Part shown: in pieces, positions 5,638-35,344 of the stretch
Layout of the letters: the number at the start of each line of letters is the position of its first letter
Numbering within the stretch: position 1 is the first letter of the stretch
Source of the DNA: a virus
Length of the DNA: 36,134 nucleotides
Strand: one strand, 5' to 3'
Virus record (IMG/VR): IMGVR_UViG_3300035201_000025
Coordinates: 1 to 36,134 of that record
Program-made: the position numbers and the translations under genes
Notes under the pieces: model-generated
Told to the model about the DNA's origin: nothing
The model's database searches: none
What the model saw: the letters and a program-made list of their open reading frames with translations, nothing else

Positions 5638-6702
5638 ATGACTACAGCCACACTTAATAAATCCCCATTGCAGAATTGGGATGAGTTTTGTGACTGGGTT
5701 ACTAGCACCAACAACCGGCTTTACGTCGGTTGGTTTGGTGTACTTATGATACCCGCACTCTTAACTGCAGCAACTTGTTTTATTATCGCGTTCATAGCTG
5801 CACCGCCAGTAGACATTGACGGAATACGCGAACCAGTCGCAGGCTCTTTACTTTATGGAAACAATATTATATCTGGAGCTGTTGTACCTAGTAGCAACGC
5901 TATTGGGCTTCACTTCTACCCGATCTGGGAGGCAGCTAACTTGGATGAATGGCTCTACAACGGAGGCCCCTACCAACTTATCATCTTCCACTTCCTTATT
6001 GGCATCGCAGCTTACATGGGACGACAATGGGAACTTAGTTATAGACTGGGAATGCGACCATGGATAGCAGTAGCATACTCAGCACCCGTCTCAGCAGCCT
6101 TTGCTATATTCTTAGTGTACCCATTCGGTCAGGGGAGTTTCTCTGATGGTATGCCTCTTGGTATTTCCGGTACTTTCAATTTTATGTTCGTCTTCCAAGC
6201 CGAGCACAATATCCTCATGCATCCATTCCATATGCTTGGTGTTGCTGGGGTTTTCGGGGGAGCTTTATTCGCTGCTATGCACGGAAGTCTCGTTAGTTCC
6301 TCGATCATTAGAGAGACAACTGATAATGAATCGCAGAATTATGGCTATAAATTTGGCCAAGATGAGGAGACGTATAACATCGTCGCAGCTCATGGCTACT
6401 TCGGTCGTTTGATTTTCCAATATGCGTCTTTTAACAATTCTCGTTCTCTTCATTTCTTTCTTGCTACTTGGCCAGTGGTTTGCATATGGCTCACCTCCAT
6501 GGGAGTCAGCACTATGGCTTTTAATCTCAACGGCTTTAACTTTAATCAATCTATCCTTGACGCAAATGGTAGGGTAGTACCTACGTGGGCTGATGTATTG
6601 AATAGAGCTAACTTAGGAATGGAAGTAATGCACGAGAGAAATGCACACAATTTCCCACTTGATTTAGCATCAGAGCCGACCCGAAATTTCGTCCTCGGCT
6701 AA
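5638..6702 (+). CDS. psbA: Photosystem II D1 protein (phage psbA)
   Basis: Core reaction-centre protein that turns over fastest in light; the phage copy keeps photosynthetic electron flow going during infection. The 354 residues are intact and collinear with cyanobacterial D1. Functional residues in place include D61, H118, Q130 (the low-light-type residue), E189-H190 (in [11 protein letters not shown]), and the C-terminal manganese-cluster ligands H332, E333, H337, D342 and A344 in the [12 protein letters not shown] segment. Cleavage by host CtpA after A344 would remove a 10-residue extension, [10 protein letters not shown]. That extension is unlike the usual Pro/Ala-rich tail of marine D1 and is encoded by the second 25-bp repeat. 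A CTGGAG ribosome-binding site lies within the end of hli. There is no intron or frameshift. Confidence 0.99.
6675..6699 (+). repeat. Copy 2 of the 25-bp hairpin-forming repeat, inside the psbA 3' end
   Basis: Encodes most of the D1 extension (PTRNFVLG) and ends one base before the TAA stop. It is 22/25 identical to 5412-5436, and TAACTT follows both (after an extra CAT codon in copy 1). The predicted hairpin has a GCCGA/TCGGC stem around an inner CGAAATTTCG palindrome. Placed exactly at the gene end, it could act as a transcript 3' end or RNase-protection hairpin as well as coding sequence. Confidence 0.75.
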
Positions 6703-6753: not shown

Positions 6754-6820
6754 GTCCGTTCATTCCCTTTCGGGAACGCATGAAACCACATCATGGAACG
6801 GGGGTGTGGTACTAAGGAGA
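6754..6820 (+). promoter_or_regulatory. Glutamine-II riboswitch (Downstream-peptide motif) with ribosome-binding site
   Basis: The fold can be traced by eye. P1 pairs CCGTTC (6756-6761) with GAACGG (6796-6801). An enclosed hairpin pairs TCCC (6764-6767) with GGGA (6772-6775). A pseudoknot pairs ACCACA (6785-6790) with TGTGGT (6805-6810). The segment ACGCATGAAACCACATCATG is the strongly conserved part of the motif as I recall it from marine picocyanobacteria and their phages, where the RNA binds L-glutamine. The Shine-Dalgarno AAGGAG (6814-6819) starts three bases after the pseudoknot and seven bases before the ATG of a micropeptide. This fits translational control by pseudoknot formation; the sequence alone does not show the direction of switching. 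Confidence 0.88.
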
Positions 6821-6826
6821 AGATCC

Positions 6827-6883
6827 ATGCAAAAAAAGATCCAACTAAAGTATCGCGGCGTGCCTTATACAAAGCAAACTTAA
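6827..6883 (+). CDS. Riboswitch-controlled 18-residue peptide (downstream peptide)
   Basis: Encodes MQKKIQLKYRGVPYTKQT with an ideal AAGGAG ribosome-binding site and a TAA stop. Position right behind the glutamine-II aptamer and the L-x-Y-R-G-V-x-Y core match the short peptides that gave the Downstream-peptide RNA motif its name. The Y-R-G-V-x-Y core also resembles the start of the cyanobacterial DUF4278 domain. Basic, with no membrane segment. The molecular role is unknown. Host peptides under this riboswitch are presumed to act in nitrogen metabolism, so interference with host glutamine or nitrogen control is a reasonable but untested guess. The next gene starts nine bases after its stop. 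Confidence 0.8.
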   Translation: MQKKIQLKYRGVPYTKQT

Positions 6884-6892
6884 ACTTTATTA

Positions 6893-7258
6893 ATGAAAAC
6901 ATTAGCACTAGCACTCGCTTCCACACTCGTTGTTCTACCGGCTTCCGCCGGAGTCTACGTGAACGTAGAGAACAACGCATCTTATACAGGTTCTGATTAT
7001 CAATCAGCTGTAACTGACTGGCATGTTGGTTACGAAGGAGCTGTTGATAAGCTTGGATACTATGTACAAGGTGGTCCCGCAACAGTTGCTGTTGATGGTG
7101 CTGACTCAGATACCAGACTATCTGGTAAGGTAGGTGCAAACATAGCTGCCACCGAGAAGCTTGACTTCTATGGCGAGCTATCAGTACTTACTGCTGATTC
7201 AGATACCAATAATGACAACGCTTGGGGTACTAAACTCGGAGCGAAGTTTAGCTTCTGA
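6893..7258 (+). CDS. Small secreted beta-barrel (porin-like) outer-membrane protein
   Basis: 121 residues with a clear Sec signal peptide: MKTLALALASTLVVLPASAG, predicted cleavage after ASA at about residue 19. The mature part of about 100 residues alternates polar and hydrophobic residues in strand-like segments (VYVNVENNASYTG, WHVGYEGAV, LGYYVQGG, LSGKVGANIA, LDFYGELSVL). It ends in TKLGAKFSF, a terminal Phe preceded by alternating hydrophobics, as in the C-terminal beta-signal read by BamA. About eight strands would fit, like a small OmpA/OmpX-type barrel. No Shine-Dalgarno precedes the ATG; it starts nine bases after the riboswitch-controlled peptide, so translation is probably coupled to it. 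Possible roles are superinfection exclusion, nutrient uptake or lysis support; none is proved. Confidence 0.75.
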   Translation: MKTLALALASTLVVLPASAGVYVNVENNASYTGSDYQSAVTDWHVGYEGAVDKLGYYVQGGPATVAVDGADSDTRLSGKVGANIAATEKLDFYGELSVLTADSDTNNDNAWGTKLGAKFSF

Positions 7259-7389
7259 TGAAGTATTTTGAATCCCCATGGGCCGTAGTTTATATGGTCC
7301 TGGGGTTCTTTATTATGGTAGAGGGTCTACATATGTACGAACATCAGCACTGTAGATCCTGTCCACCTTGTAAAATAAATGAGTATTGA
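7258..7389 (+). CDS. 43-residue single-pass membrane protein with Cys-rich tail
   Basis: Starts with an ATG overlapping the stop of the barrel gene (TGATG) and overlaps the next gene by 11 bases, so it sits in a tight translational chain. The N-terminal hydrophobic helix is WAVVYMVLGFFIMVEGLHMY (about 8-27). The tail reads EHQHCRSCPPCKINEY, with C32-x2-C35-x2-C38 and two His, a plausible metal or disulfide site. I recall similar membrane-plus-Cys microproteins in other cyanophages but know no function. Operon position suggests action with the barrel protein in the host envelope. Confidence 0.7.
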   Translation: MKYFESPWAVVYMVLGFFIMVEGLHMYEHQHCRSCPPCKINEY

Positions 7390-7729
7390 AAAAACAGCTG
7401 AAGAGATAGGTCATAACCCATCTAATCCTATCGTTAAGATGTTGTTACTGAGCCCAAAGGATCATACTTTCTGGTATGAAAGAGAAGATGGTACTCGTTA
7501 TATGGCTCATAAACGTAGAGAGATACGAGATGATTATTTCTACACTGAAGTTGATGGGTATCAATTAGAATTAAAAATGGACAATGCTAAGGTAACACCC
7601 TATGGGTATACACCTGAGATAAAAGATCCTCCTCTTGATACATTACCTAGTGATGTACAACCACCAGGTGTGGATGAGGAAAATGAAATCGAAAGCAGTG
7701 AGGCTGAATTAGAATCTCACTCTTATTAA
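7379..7729 (+). CDS. Hypothetical 116-residue protein before the capsid gene
   Basis: Begins MSIEKTAEEIGHNPSNP. An N-terminal globular part rich in aromatic and charged residues (about 1-70: FWYEREDGTRYMAHKR) is followed by a proline-rich, acidic, probably disordered tail (DPPLDTLPSDVQPPG, then Glu/Ser-rich). No membrane helix or signal peptide is seen. It is last in the run of accessory genes between psbA and the capsid gene and ends just before a terminator-like hairpin. I do not recognise a family. The acidic tail could suggest a capsid-associated or scaffold-like accessory, but that is speculative. Confidence 0.7.
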   Translation: MSIEKTAEEIGHNPSNPIVKMLLLSPKDHTFWYEREDGTRYMAHKRREIRDDYFYTEVDGYQLELKMDNAKVTPYGYTPEIKDPPLDTLPSDVQPPGVDEENEIESSEAELESHSY

Positions 7730-7736
7730 TTGGAAC

Positions 7737-7765
7737 GGGAGCACCTCAGAGTCGGACTCCCTTTT
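7737..7765 (+). terminator. Terminator-like hairpin before the capsid gene
   Basis: GGGAG (7737-7741) pairs with CTCCC (7757-7761), followed by TTTT. The 15-base loop can form an alternative GAGTC/GACTC hairpin. It sits right after the preceding stop codon and could separate accessory transcripts from the capsid operon or reduce read-through. The T-run is short, so termination strength is uncertain. Confidence 0.45.
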
Positions 7766-7778
7766 CATTGGCACTGGC

Positions 7779-7818
7779 CCTGTACGCAGGATACCCTTTG
7801 CCGTCTAGACGGTAGGGA
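7779..7818 (+). promoter_or_regulatory. Hairpin cluster in the capsid-gene leader
   Basis: Two further stem-loops upstream of the major capsid ATG: CCTG-tacg-CAGG (7779-7790), and CCCT (7794-7797) with AGGG (7814-7817) enclosing the palindrome CCGTCTAGACGG (7801-7812). About 70 AT-rich bases with no clear Shine-Dalgarno separate them from the ATG. In T7 this spacer holds the strong phi10 promoter, so an RNA-processing or mRNA-stabilising leader, or a phage-polymerase promoter nearby, would fit. Confidence 0.5.
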
Positions 7819-7885
7819 AAGACCTACAAAATTGATCAAAAAATTTCGTGCGAAAGAAAGTTAACAATAAACTTATTTTAATATA

Positions 7886-9205
7886 ATGGCTAATGCTTTA
7901 CAAACCGGAATAGGTAGAGCCAATCTATCTTCTGGTGTAGGTTATGATGGTACTGCTGATAAGTATGCTCTCTATTTGAAACTGTTCAGTGGAGAGATGT
8001 TTAAAGGCTTCCAGCATAACACAATTGCTCGTGATCTAGTCACGAAGCGGACCTTGAAGAACGGCAAATCATTGCAGTTCATCTATACAGGTCGCATGAA
8101 ATCTGAGTACCATACTCCTGGTACACCTATCTTAGGTAATGATGACAAGTCACCTCCAGTAGCTGAGAAGACCATCGTAATGGATGATCTTTTAATCAGC
8201 TCTGCATTTGTCTATGACTTAGATGAGACACTTGCTCATTACGATTTGAGAGGAGAGATCTCTCGTAAGATTGGTTATGCTCTTGCTGAGAACTACGATC
8301 GTAAGATCTTCAGAGCTATTGCTCGTGGTGCTCGTAAGGCTTCACCTATCACTGCCTCAGGTTATGTAGAACCAGGTGGAACTCAGATCCAGTTAAATGC
8401 AACACAGAATAATACTCAAGCAACAACTGCTAGTAACTTAATTACAGGTTTCTTTGATGCTGCTGCAGTATTAGATGAGAAAGGGGTCAGTACAGATGGA
8501 CGTGTAGCTGTTCTTAACCCAAGACAGTACTATGCACTAATCCAAGAGACTGGTGATAATGGTCTCATCAATCGTGACGTACAAGGTGCTGGACTACAGT
8601 CTGGTGAAGGCGTTGTATCGATTGCTGGTATCAAGATCTATAAGTCTATGAACATACCATTCCTTGGTAAGTTCGGTACTGCCAATACAATCACGAACCC
8701 TGGTTCATTTATTGGTCAGTCTATAGATTCAGCTGCTGGTAGTCAGTCTGGTACTTATGCAAGAGCAGATACAGGTGTAACAACAGTTACCAAAACAGCT
8801 CATGGTATTTCTGTTGGCGATAAGGTAGTATTCAATGCTACTGCAGGTACTGCTACTTCTGGTACTTACACAGTTGCTACTGTTCCTAATGCAGACACCT
8901 TTACATTTACGGACTCTGCACTAACTTCTACTCAGTCTAGTGCAGCTTGTACTTTCAACATCGCAGGTGTTAATAACAACTATGGTGAGTCTAATGACTT
9001 CGCTGGCTCTTGTGGCCTTATCTTCCAGAGAGAAGCTGCAGGTGTTGTTGAAGCAATTGGACCACAGGTTCAAACAACTAGTGGTGATGTATCCGTTATC
9101 TATCAAGGTGACGTAATACTTGGCCGCCTTGCAATGGGTGCAGATTATCTAAACCCAGCTGCTTGTGTTGAACTTCATGTAGGTTCCGCTGACGCTGCTT
9201 TCTAA
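7886..9205 (+). CDS. Major capsid protein, gp10-like, with inserted beta module
   Basis: HK97-fold shell protein. The N-terminal half is typical of T7-like cyanophage capsids: MANALQTGIGRANLS, LYLKLFSGEMFKGFQ, then EYHTPGTPI and LAENYDRKIFRAIARGARKA. The C-terminal half includes RVAVLNPRQYYALIQ, EGVVSIAGIKIYKS and GLIFQREAAGVVEA. At 439 residues it exceeds T7 gp10A (345) mainly because of an insert at about 288-358 (DNA 8747-8960) with the pattern T-x-H-G-x3-G-D-x-V-x-F and NADTFTFTDS. That pattern resembles the small beta domain often matched as E1_FCCH in marine phage proteins and probably projects from the capsid surface. A strong terminator follows. Confidence 0.97.
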   Translation: MANALQTGIGRANLSSGVGYDGTADKYALYLKLFSGEMFKGFQHNTIARDLVTKRTLKNGKSLQFIYTGRMKSEYHTPGTPILGNDDKSPPVAEKTIVMDDLLISSAFVYDLDETLAHYDLRGEISRKIGYALAENYDRKIFRAIARGARKASPITASGYVEPGGTQIQLNATQNNTQATTASNLITGFFDAAAVLDEKGVSTDGRVAVLNPRQYYALIQETGDNGLINRDVQGAGLQSGEGVVSIAGIKIYKSMNIPFLGKFGTANTITNPGSFIGQSIDSAAGSQSGTYARADTGVTTVTKTAHGISVGDKVVFNATAGTATSGTYTVATVPNADTFTFTDSALTSTQSSAACTFNIAGVNNNYGESNDFAGSCGLIFQREAAGVVEAIGPQVQTTSGDVSVIYQGDVILGRLAMGADYLNPAACVELHVGSADAAF

Positions 9206-35338: not shown

Positions 35339-35344
35339 TTTCCT

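Follow-up and report, generated by a model that had tools for sequence, protein, structure and literature searches.

A glutamine-II aptamer and a short YRG peptide form a conserved unit upstream of the major capsid gene in marine cyanopodoviruses

Introduction

The glutamine-II (Downstream-peptide) motif is listed by Weinberg 2010 as 'Cyanobacteria, marine'. According to a review (PMC6316151), glutamine turns host type 2 riboswitches ON, and the glutamine-synthetase inactivating factor IF17 has DUF4278 as its N-terminus. The authors of the crystal structure inferred that an unspecified structure, with which glutamine competes, blocks the ribosome-binding site (RBS) (PMC6698751). Among viruses, T4-like cyanophages are said in the literature to carry a glutamine riboswitch. 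A search of open-access literature found no description of an aptamer–peptide locus in cyanopodoviruses. The riboswitch type is already known, and the viral site is conserved. Cyanopodoviruses, P-SSP7 among them, serve as models for viral infection of phototrophs that rank among the most abundant, and large parts of the ocean are limited by nitrogen.

Results

The glutamine-II aptamer and its genomic site

The DNA analysed here (the window), a virus record of 36,134 bases, belongs to a T7-like marine cyanophage in which scaffold, hli, psbA and capsid genes are present. Its psbA gene is followed, in order, by a glutamine-II aptamer, a short peptide gene, a barrel protein gene, a gene for a 43-residue protein, an open reading frame (ORF) of 116 residues, a structured RNA and the capsid gene. 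The outer neighbours and the elements of the aptamer are as follows:

5638–6702, + strand: psbA, the upstream neighbour; an ORF whose product is 88% identical to the annotated photosystem II D1 protein of P-SSP10
6754–6810, + strand: glutamine-II (Downstream-peptide) aptamer; RF01704 match and covariation
6756–6761 with 6796–6801, + strand: aptamer pseudoknot, from the RF01704 match
6763–6767 with 6772–6776, + strand: aptamer helix P1, from the RF01704 match
6785–6791 with 6804–6810, + strand: aptamer helix P2, from the RF01704 match
7886–9205, + strand: major capsid protein gene, the constant downstream neighbour; tblastn to annotated capsid genes

A preliminary description, made from the letters of the window alone, had called the aptamer fully traceable and proposed a search with the Rfam model. 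Rfam cmscan at gathering thresholds bore this out, with a match to RF01704 of 60.9 bits (cut-off 33 bits, E 1.6e-12) that spans the full model (1–60) and contains no broken pair. Leaders for comparison came from the matches listed for an aptamer pattern across IMG/VR (a sample, so that counts are lower bounds), from relatives of the barrel protein and from isolate genomes. When the Rfam-type structure was imposed on an alignment of 58 distinct viral leaders, 98.3% of the aptamer pair cells were standard pairs and two-sided changes were present in 11 of 17 pairs, comprising 4/4 in P1 and 7/7 in P2. The pseudoknot pairs are almost invariant, and their conserved letters are present in the window. 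The covariation score of 0.418 was above all 500 shuffles (0.132), while slid versions of the structure reached 0.076 at most. With this share of paired cells and two-sided changes beyond every shuffle, the aptamer lies far above chance, and it is expected to sense glutamine.

In a search of whole records, 13 of 19 cyanopodoviruses have an RF01704 match over the cut-off (P-SSP10, P-SSP7, NATL1A-7, MedDCM C849, P-SSP2, P-GSP1, S-RIP2, S-TIP37, P-SCSP-R27W, S-CBP1, SS120-1, S28-C3 and 9515-10a). Among the matches listed, 77 records or contigs hold both the aptamer and the capsid gene within reach; in every one the two share a strand, with the aptamer 5′. The median distance is ∼310 nt where the barrel cassette is absent, and the cassette lengthens the gap to ∼960 nt. 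The site of this host-type riboswitch module in marine cyanopodoviruses is fixed: 5′ of the capsid gene and usually behind hli or psbA. A phage-type leader, together with the capsid-upstream RNA, also occurs in a contig filed in a genome collection (L300:1956–2065), which is probably viral DNA within that genome assembly. The crystallised 'Prochlorococcus sp. RS01' aptamer was considered as a sequence of viral origin, which was rejected as it had no exact match in viral contigs.

Five T4-like cyanophages (S-SSM4, S-SSM5, ACG-2014b, S-SSM7 and syn9; loci L343, L346, L347, L348 and L349) contain tandem, weakly scoring sequences that resemble the glutamine aptamer. The second copy, or both copies in syn9, encloses an ORF of 53–54 residues in its P1 loop, with the start codon in a P1 strand and the stop inside the aptamer. 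This nested ORF family is present in 307 phage records. In all of these phages but syn9, the tandem pair was seen to precede a DUF4278-like peptide.

The YRG peptide

6814–6819, + strand: AAGGAG, the ribosome-binding site of the peptide, from sequence
6827–6883, + strand: 18-residue YRG peptide MQKKIQLKYRGVPYTKQT, DUF4278-like; Y-R-G-x-x-Y is invariant in viral leaders

The short gene first described behind the aptamer has this RBS, an ATG at 6827 and a stop codon that ends at 6883. The peptide is the constant partner of the aptamer, whereas the barrel is inconstant: at least 98 distinct viral leaders have a YRG peptide behind the aptamer, one in each, and 77 of the 98 peptides are preceded by an SD-like sequence. 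All 98 leaders share the Y, R, G and second Y of YRGxxY, which are encoded by 2, 6, 4 and 2 different codons, respectively. Because these residues are fixed while synonymous codons vary, the peptide is under purifying selection as a protein, and this is also the case in phages without the barrel. The conserved unit is the aptamer with a YRGVxY(T)K peptide 5′ of the major capsid gene.

Codons 9–14 of the window peptide encode YRGVPY, which has the YRGxxY core of DUF4278 (PF14105), but the profile of this family scores 16.4 bits against a cut-off of 25.3 and the peptide is therefore termed DUF4278-like only. No relatives were found in the PDB. The short peptide is unannotated in the feature tables of P-SSP10, P-SSP7, NATL1A-7, P-SSP2, P-GSP1 and 9515-10a, and in S-RIP2, S-TIP37 and S28-C3 longer YRG forms carry the annotation of hypothetical protein. 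Host glutamine-II leaders (Prochlorococcus and Synechococcus) precede proteins, mostly 33–72 residues long, in which a YRG or YRR motif occurs one to three times, such as MTTLTYRGKNY...ELTYRRNVY...ELNYRGVNYTK, and the two host relatives that were profiled both scored above the DUF4278 cut-off (33–43 bits). Judged by sequence, the phage peptide looks like the final unit of a host YRG-repeat protein and resembles a minimal host DUF4278-type microprotein.

A candidate expression platform

6807–6813 (UGGUACU) with 6849–6855 (K-Y-R codons), + strand: candidate expression-platform helix P3; fold, covariation, codon test and accessibility

In the predicted fold of the window, the 3′ end of P2 and the adjoining spacer pair with the K-Y-R codons of the peptide. 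This helix, P3, overlaps the outer end of P2 at 6807–6810, and both the RBS and the start codon lie between its strands. Complementarity covers the K/V-Y-R codons across viral leaders, and the same register recurs with matched changes on both strands (GGUACU/AAGUAUC, GGUAUAUG/CGUAUAUC and GGUGUAC/GUAUACC), while GGUAUU/AAAUAUC is found in the sole two leaders that use the AAA lysine codon. Two-sided changes occur at two pairs, in 22 and 20 sequences of the viral leader alignment. The covariation score, which like the other P3 statistics is inflated by relatedness among the leaders, was 0.285 and exceeded all 500 shuffles (mean 0.137) as well as every slide. In a synonymous-codon test, in which the amino acids were fixed and codons were drawn from phage usage, the real K/V-Y-R codons paired better with the spacer than the synonymous draws (mean z −1.34 over 78 leaders), compared with a z of −0.03 for control codons just past YRG; over 16 peptide clusters the mean z was −0.77 (p 0.04).

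By predicted accessibility, imposing the bound aptamer eased opening of the start region in 63 of 91 viral leaders and hindered it in 10, while the corresponding predictions for host leaders were 29 easier and 27 harder. The predicted energy effect of P3 is ∼1 kcal/mol. P3 is absent from host leaders and from several Synechococcus-type lineages, and it was rejected as a universal platform on these grounds. In-line probing suggests that P2 is formed without glutamine (PMC6698751), which counts against P3, although P3 needs only the outer pairs of P2 to open. On balance, we regard the prospect that P3 is a real expression platform in this lineage as approaching even, but falling a little short of it. 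The supplement of Weinberg 2010 reportedly hints at a regulatory role for the conserved amino acids, an idea with which P3 may overlap.

The complementarity between the peptide codons and the edge of the aptamer would also suit a YRG ORF that serves as a leader peptide, in which the act of translation, or stalling, adjusts the RNA switch or the downstream genes and the product has no partner protein. Such a role would suit a very short ORF with a small core that lies directly before other genes. It is nonetheless unlikely, given that the four core residues are fixed across at least 98 leaders while their codons vary, and that the motif is kept both in N-terminally extended forms and in host versions of 33–72 residues. 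In addition, most aptamer-sampled contigs have no other ORF coupled to the peptide.

The barrel cassette

6893–7258, + strand: Phage_OMP barrel protein of 121 residues with a signal-peptide-like N-terminus and no SD; PF24653 match and AlphaFold2
7258–7389, + strand: one-span Cys-rich membrane microprotein of 43 residues with EGLHMYEHQHCRSCPPC; relatives in other loci
7379–7729, + strand: ORF of 116 residues, fourth member of the overlapping chain; phrog_14292 (E 1.1e-9), relatives found

The barrel protein matches PF24653 (Phage_OMP) over its full length (residues 1–121) with 144.3 bits against a cut-off of 27. Its AlphaFold2 model has six strands (pLDDT 81.5, pTM 0.67) and matches models of other cyanophage Phage_OMP proteins, with weak matches to solved outer-membrane barrels. 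The family is present in 463 phage records, and those listed are mostly large cyanophage genomes. As had been noted from the sequence, the barrel gene has no RBS of its own (its ATG at 6893 lies nine bases past the peptide stop and no SD-like sequence intervenes), its stop overlaps the start of the next gene in TGATG at 7256–7260, and the 43-residue product has a C-x2-C-x2-C motif (CRSCPPC). The extent of the operon required one correction: the chain had been ended at 7389, but the 116-residue ORF overlaps the 43-residue gene by 11 nt and extends it.

None of 32 riboswitch-linked barrel genes is preceded by an SD-like sequence, in contrast to 77 of the 98 viral peptides, and their distance from the peptide stop ranges from −1 to 15 nt (median 9). 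This spacing, which is within reinitiation or overlap distance, and the missing SD sequences fit translational coupling. The cassette of barrel, Cys-rich protein and 116-residue protein would be expressed through translation of the peptide. Relatives of the 43-residue protein occur in ∼15 riboswitch loci, where HCRxCxxC is usual but not universal. The family consists of one-span microproteins of the form EGLHMxEHxHCRxCxxC, and in distant relatives the cysteines are lost, whereas the hydrophobic span and the His residues remain.

The preliminary description went further and took the riboswitch to tie an envelope-modifying set to host nitrogen status, a reading in which the barrel and the Cys-rich membrane protein are the purpose of the riboswitch and the peptide is only a coupling leader. 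The lack of an SD sequence before the barrels is in line with this, as is the finding of an aptamer directly before 42 of 68 barrel loci with enough upstream sequence (32 by pattern and 10 by the Rfam model). The model found divergent aptamers before ten barrels labelled 'not linked', so that label was not accepted at face value. Viewed from the aptamer, the association is much looser. PF24653 is found in 8 of 19 cyanopodovirus records, and the barrel lies directly behind the peptide in 4 of the 13 isolate records with the aptamer (P-SSP10, 9515-10a, P-SCSP-R27W and NATL1A-7). It sits 5′ of psbA in P-SSP2, S-RIP2 and S-TIP37, as in S-SBP1, and P-SSP7, P-GSP1, C849, S-CBP1, S28-C3 and SS120-1 all carry the aptamer–peptide module with no barrel match. 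Among the matches listed, 47 aptamer-sampled contigs include the capsid gene; the barrel is between the two in 7, 5′ of the riboswitch in 6 and unseen in 34, these contigs being fragments. As the peptide is also selected as a protein in barrel-free phages, we consider it distinctly improbable that the riboswitch exists for the envelope cassette. Where the cassette is present it looks coupled, while comparison of synteny across cyanophages shows the peptide and barrel to be linked in some and the barrel to be optional. The membrane-protein genes beside the riboswitch are an occasional, lineage-specific passenger.

A structured RNA before the capsid gene

7729–7834, + strand: structured RNA R1, at the end of the cassette and before the capsid gene; covariation and a covariance model score of 114.3 bits

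In an alignment of 54 distinct copies of R1, 95.7% of cells are paired and two-sided changes occur in 14 of 18 pairs. Its hairpin of GCACCUCAGAGUCGGAC type is invariant; the other features are a helix capped by UACG, the palindrome CCGUCUAGACGG and a GAnAGA hairpin whose stem covaries. R1 has no Rfam match. Of 19 cyanopodovirus records, 17 contain a match to its covariance model, among them four with no glutamine-II match over the cut-off, and it was absent from the two T4-like records searched; further copies lie at L001:4648–4752, L330:3334–3439 and elsewhere. In NATL1A-7 and some contigs, the T-arm of a complete tRNA-Gly(TCC) stands in for the first hairpin (L003:4738–4808, L160:3546–3618, L162:3527–3598 and L193:3524–3596), and P-SSP7 and P-SSP2 have a lone T-loop-like hairpin at this site. 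A permuted tmRNA or tRNA was rejected as the identity of the capsid-upstream element, as the sole ARAGORN match in the window is a tRNA-Asp at 35344.

The constant position of the aptamer before the capsid gene, on the same strand in 77/77 cases and at a median of only ∼310 nt without the cassette, could mean that the riboswitch mainly tunes late expression through the downstream capsid transcript. R1 intervenes as a separate structured RNA, also in records with no glutamine-II match (S-B28, S-CBP3 and DSL-LC07), and the cassette lengthens the distance to ∼960 nt. Predictions on the window gave no sign of a transcriptional platform. A sigma-70 promoter was rejected as a unit boundary, promoter predictions being not above shuffles, and so was an intrinsic terminator, with four terminator-like sites in the window (1.9 expected) and none between the riboswitch and the capsid gene. 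A main role in capsid transcription is accordingly very improbable.

Discussion

The explanation that we favour, and hold to be somewhat likelier true than false, is a translational ON switch for a peptide that acts on host nitrogen, with P3 as the OFF helix and an optional, coupled envelope cassette. At high glutamine, the pseudoknot would form and the outer P2 pairs would hold, which would free the RBS so that the 18-residue peptide is made. At low glutamine, pairing of the K/V-Y-R codons with the spacer and the 3′ edge of P2 would instead lock the start region. We infer the ON direction from work on host riboswitches (PMC6316151) and from predicted accessibility. During infection, the YRGVxY(T)K peptide would most likely target the nitrogen metabolism of the host or the control of PII or glutamine synthetase, and in this lineage the cassette behind it would be expressed by translational coupling. 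A bolder version is that T7-like marine phages carry a stripped-down glutamine sensor–effector, in which the YRG codons are themselves the OFF strand and the product is a one-motif DUF4278 mimic that resets host nitrogen assimilation during capsid production; we offer this as speculation and consider it doubtful as a whole.

If true, a conserved glutamine sensor 5′ of the capsid gene would tie infection directly to the nitrogen state of the host. This idea is testable in existing isolates, and the peptide is unannotated in P-SSP7, P-SSP2, P-SSP10 and P-GSP1. The crystal-structure paper (PMC6698751) left open which alternative structure occludes the RBS, and P3 is a concrete candidate for it; the phage module also offers a route to learning what YRG microproteins do.

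Several described systems share parts of this locus. Methylophage Melnitz and its relatives also demonstrate a glutamine riboswitch in marine phages, but theirs is glnA-type and tmRNA-linked, with no YRG peptide described (PMC9004378). The window barrel is a full-length member of the cyanophage Phage_OMP family (PF24653/phrog_417) in both profile match and fold, and differs from most members found in being linked to a riboswitch. With DUF4278 proteins and the N-terminus of IF17, the phage peptide shares the YRGxxY motif and riboswitch control; it differs in having 18 residues, a single motif and a score below the family cut-off, and any inhibition of glutamine synthetase by it is putative. The closest counterpart is RF01704 of marine picocyanobacteria, which has the same P1, pseudoknot, P2 and conserved core letters, as well as a short downstream ORF and the same spacing to the start codon. 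Compared with these host copies, that of the window is encoded by a phage and lies next to the capsid gene, its spacer can pair with the peptide codons (P3) in a manner unseen in host leaders, and its peptide has a single YRG motif, against two or three in most host proteins.
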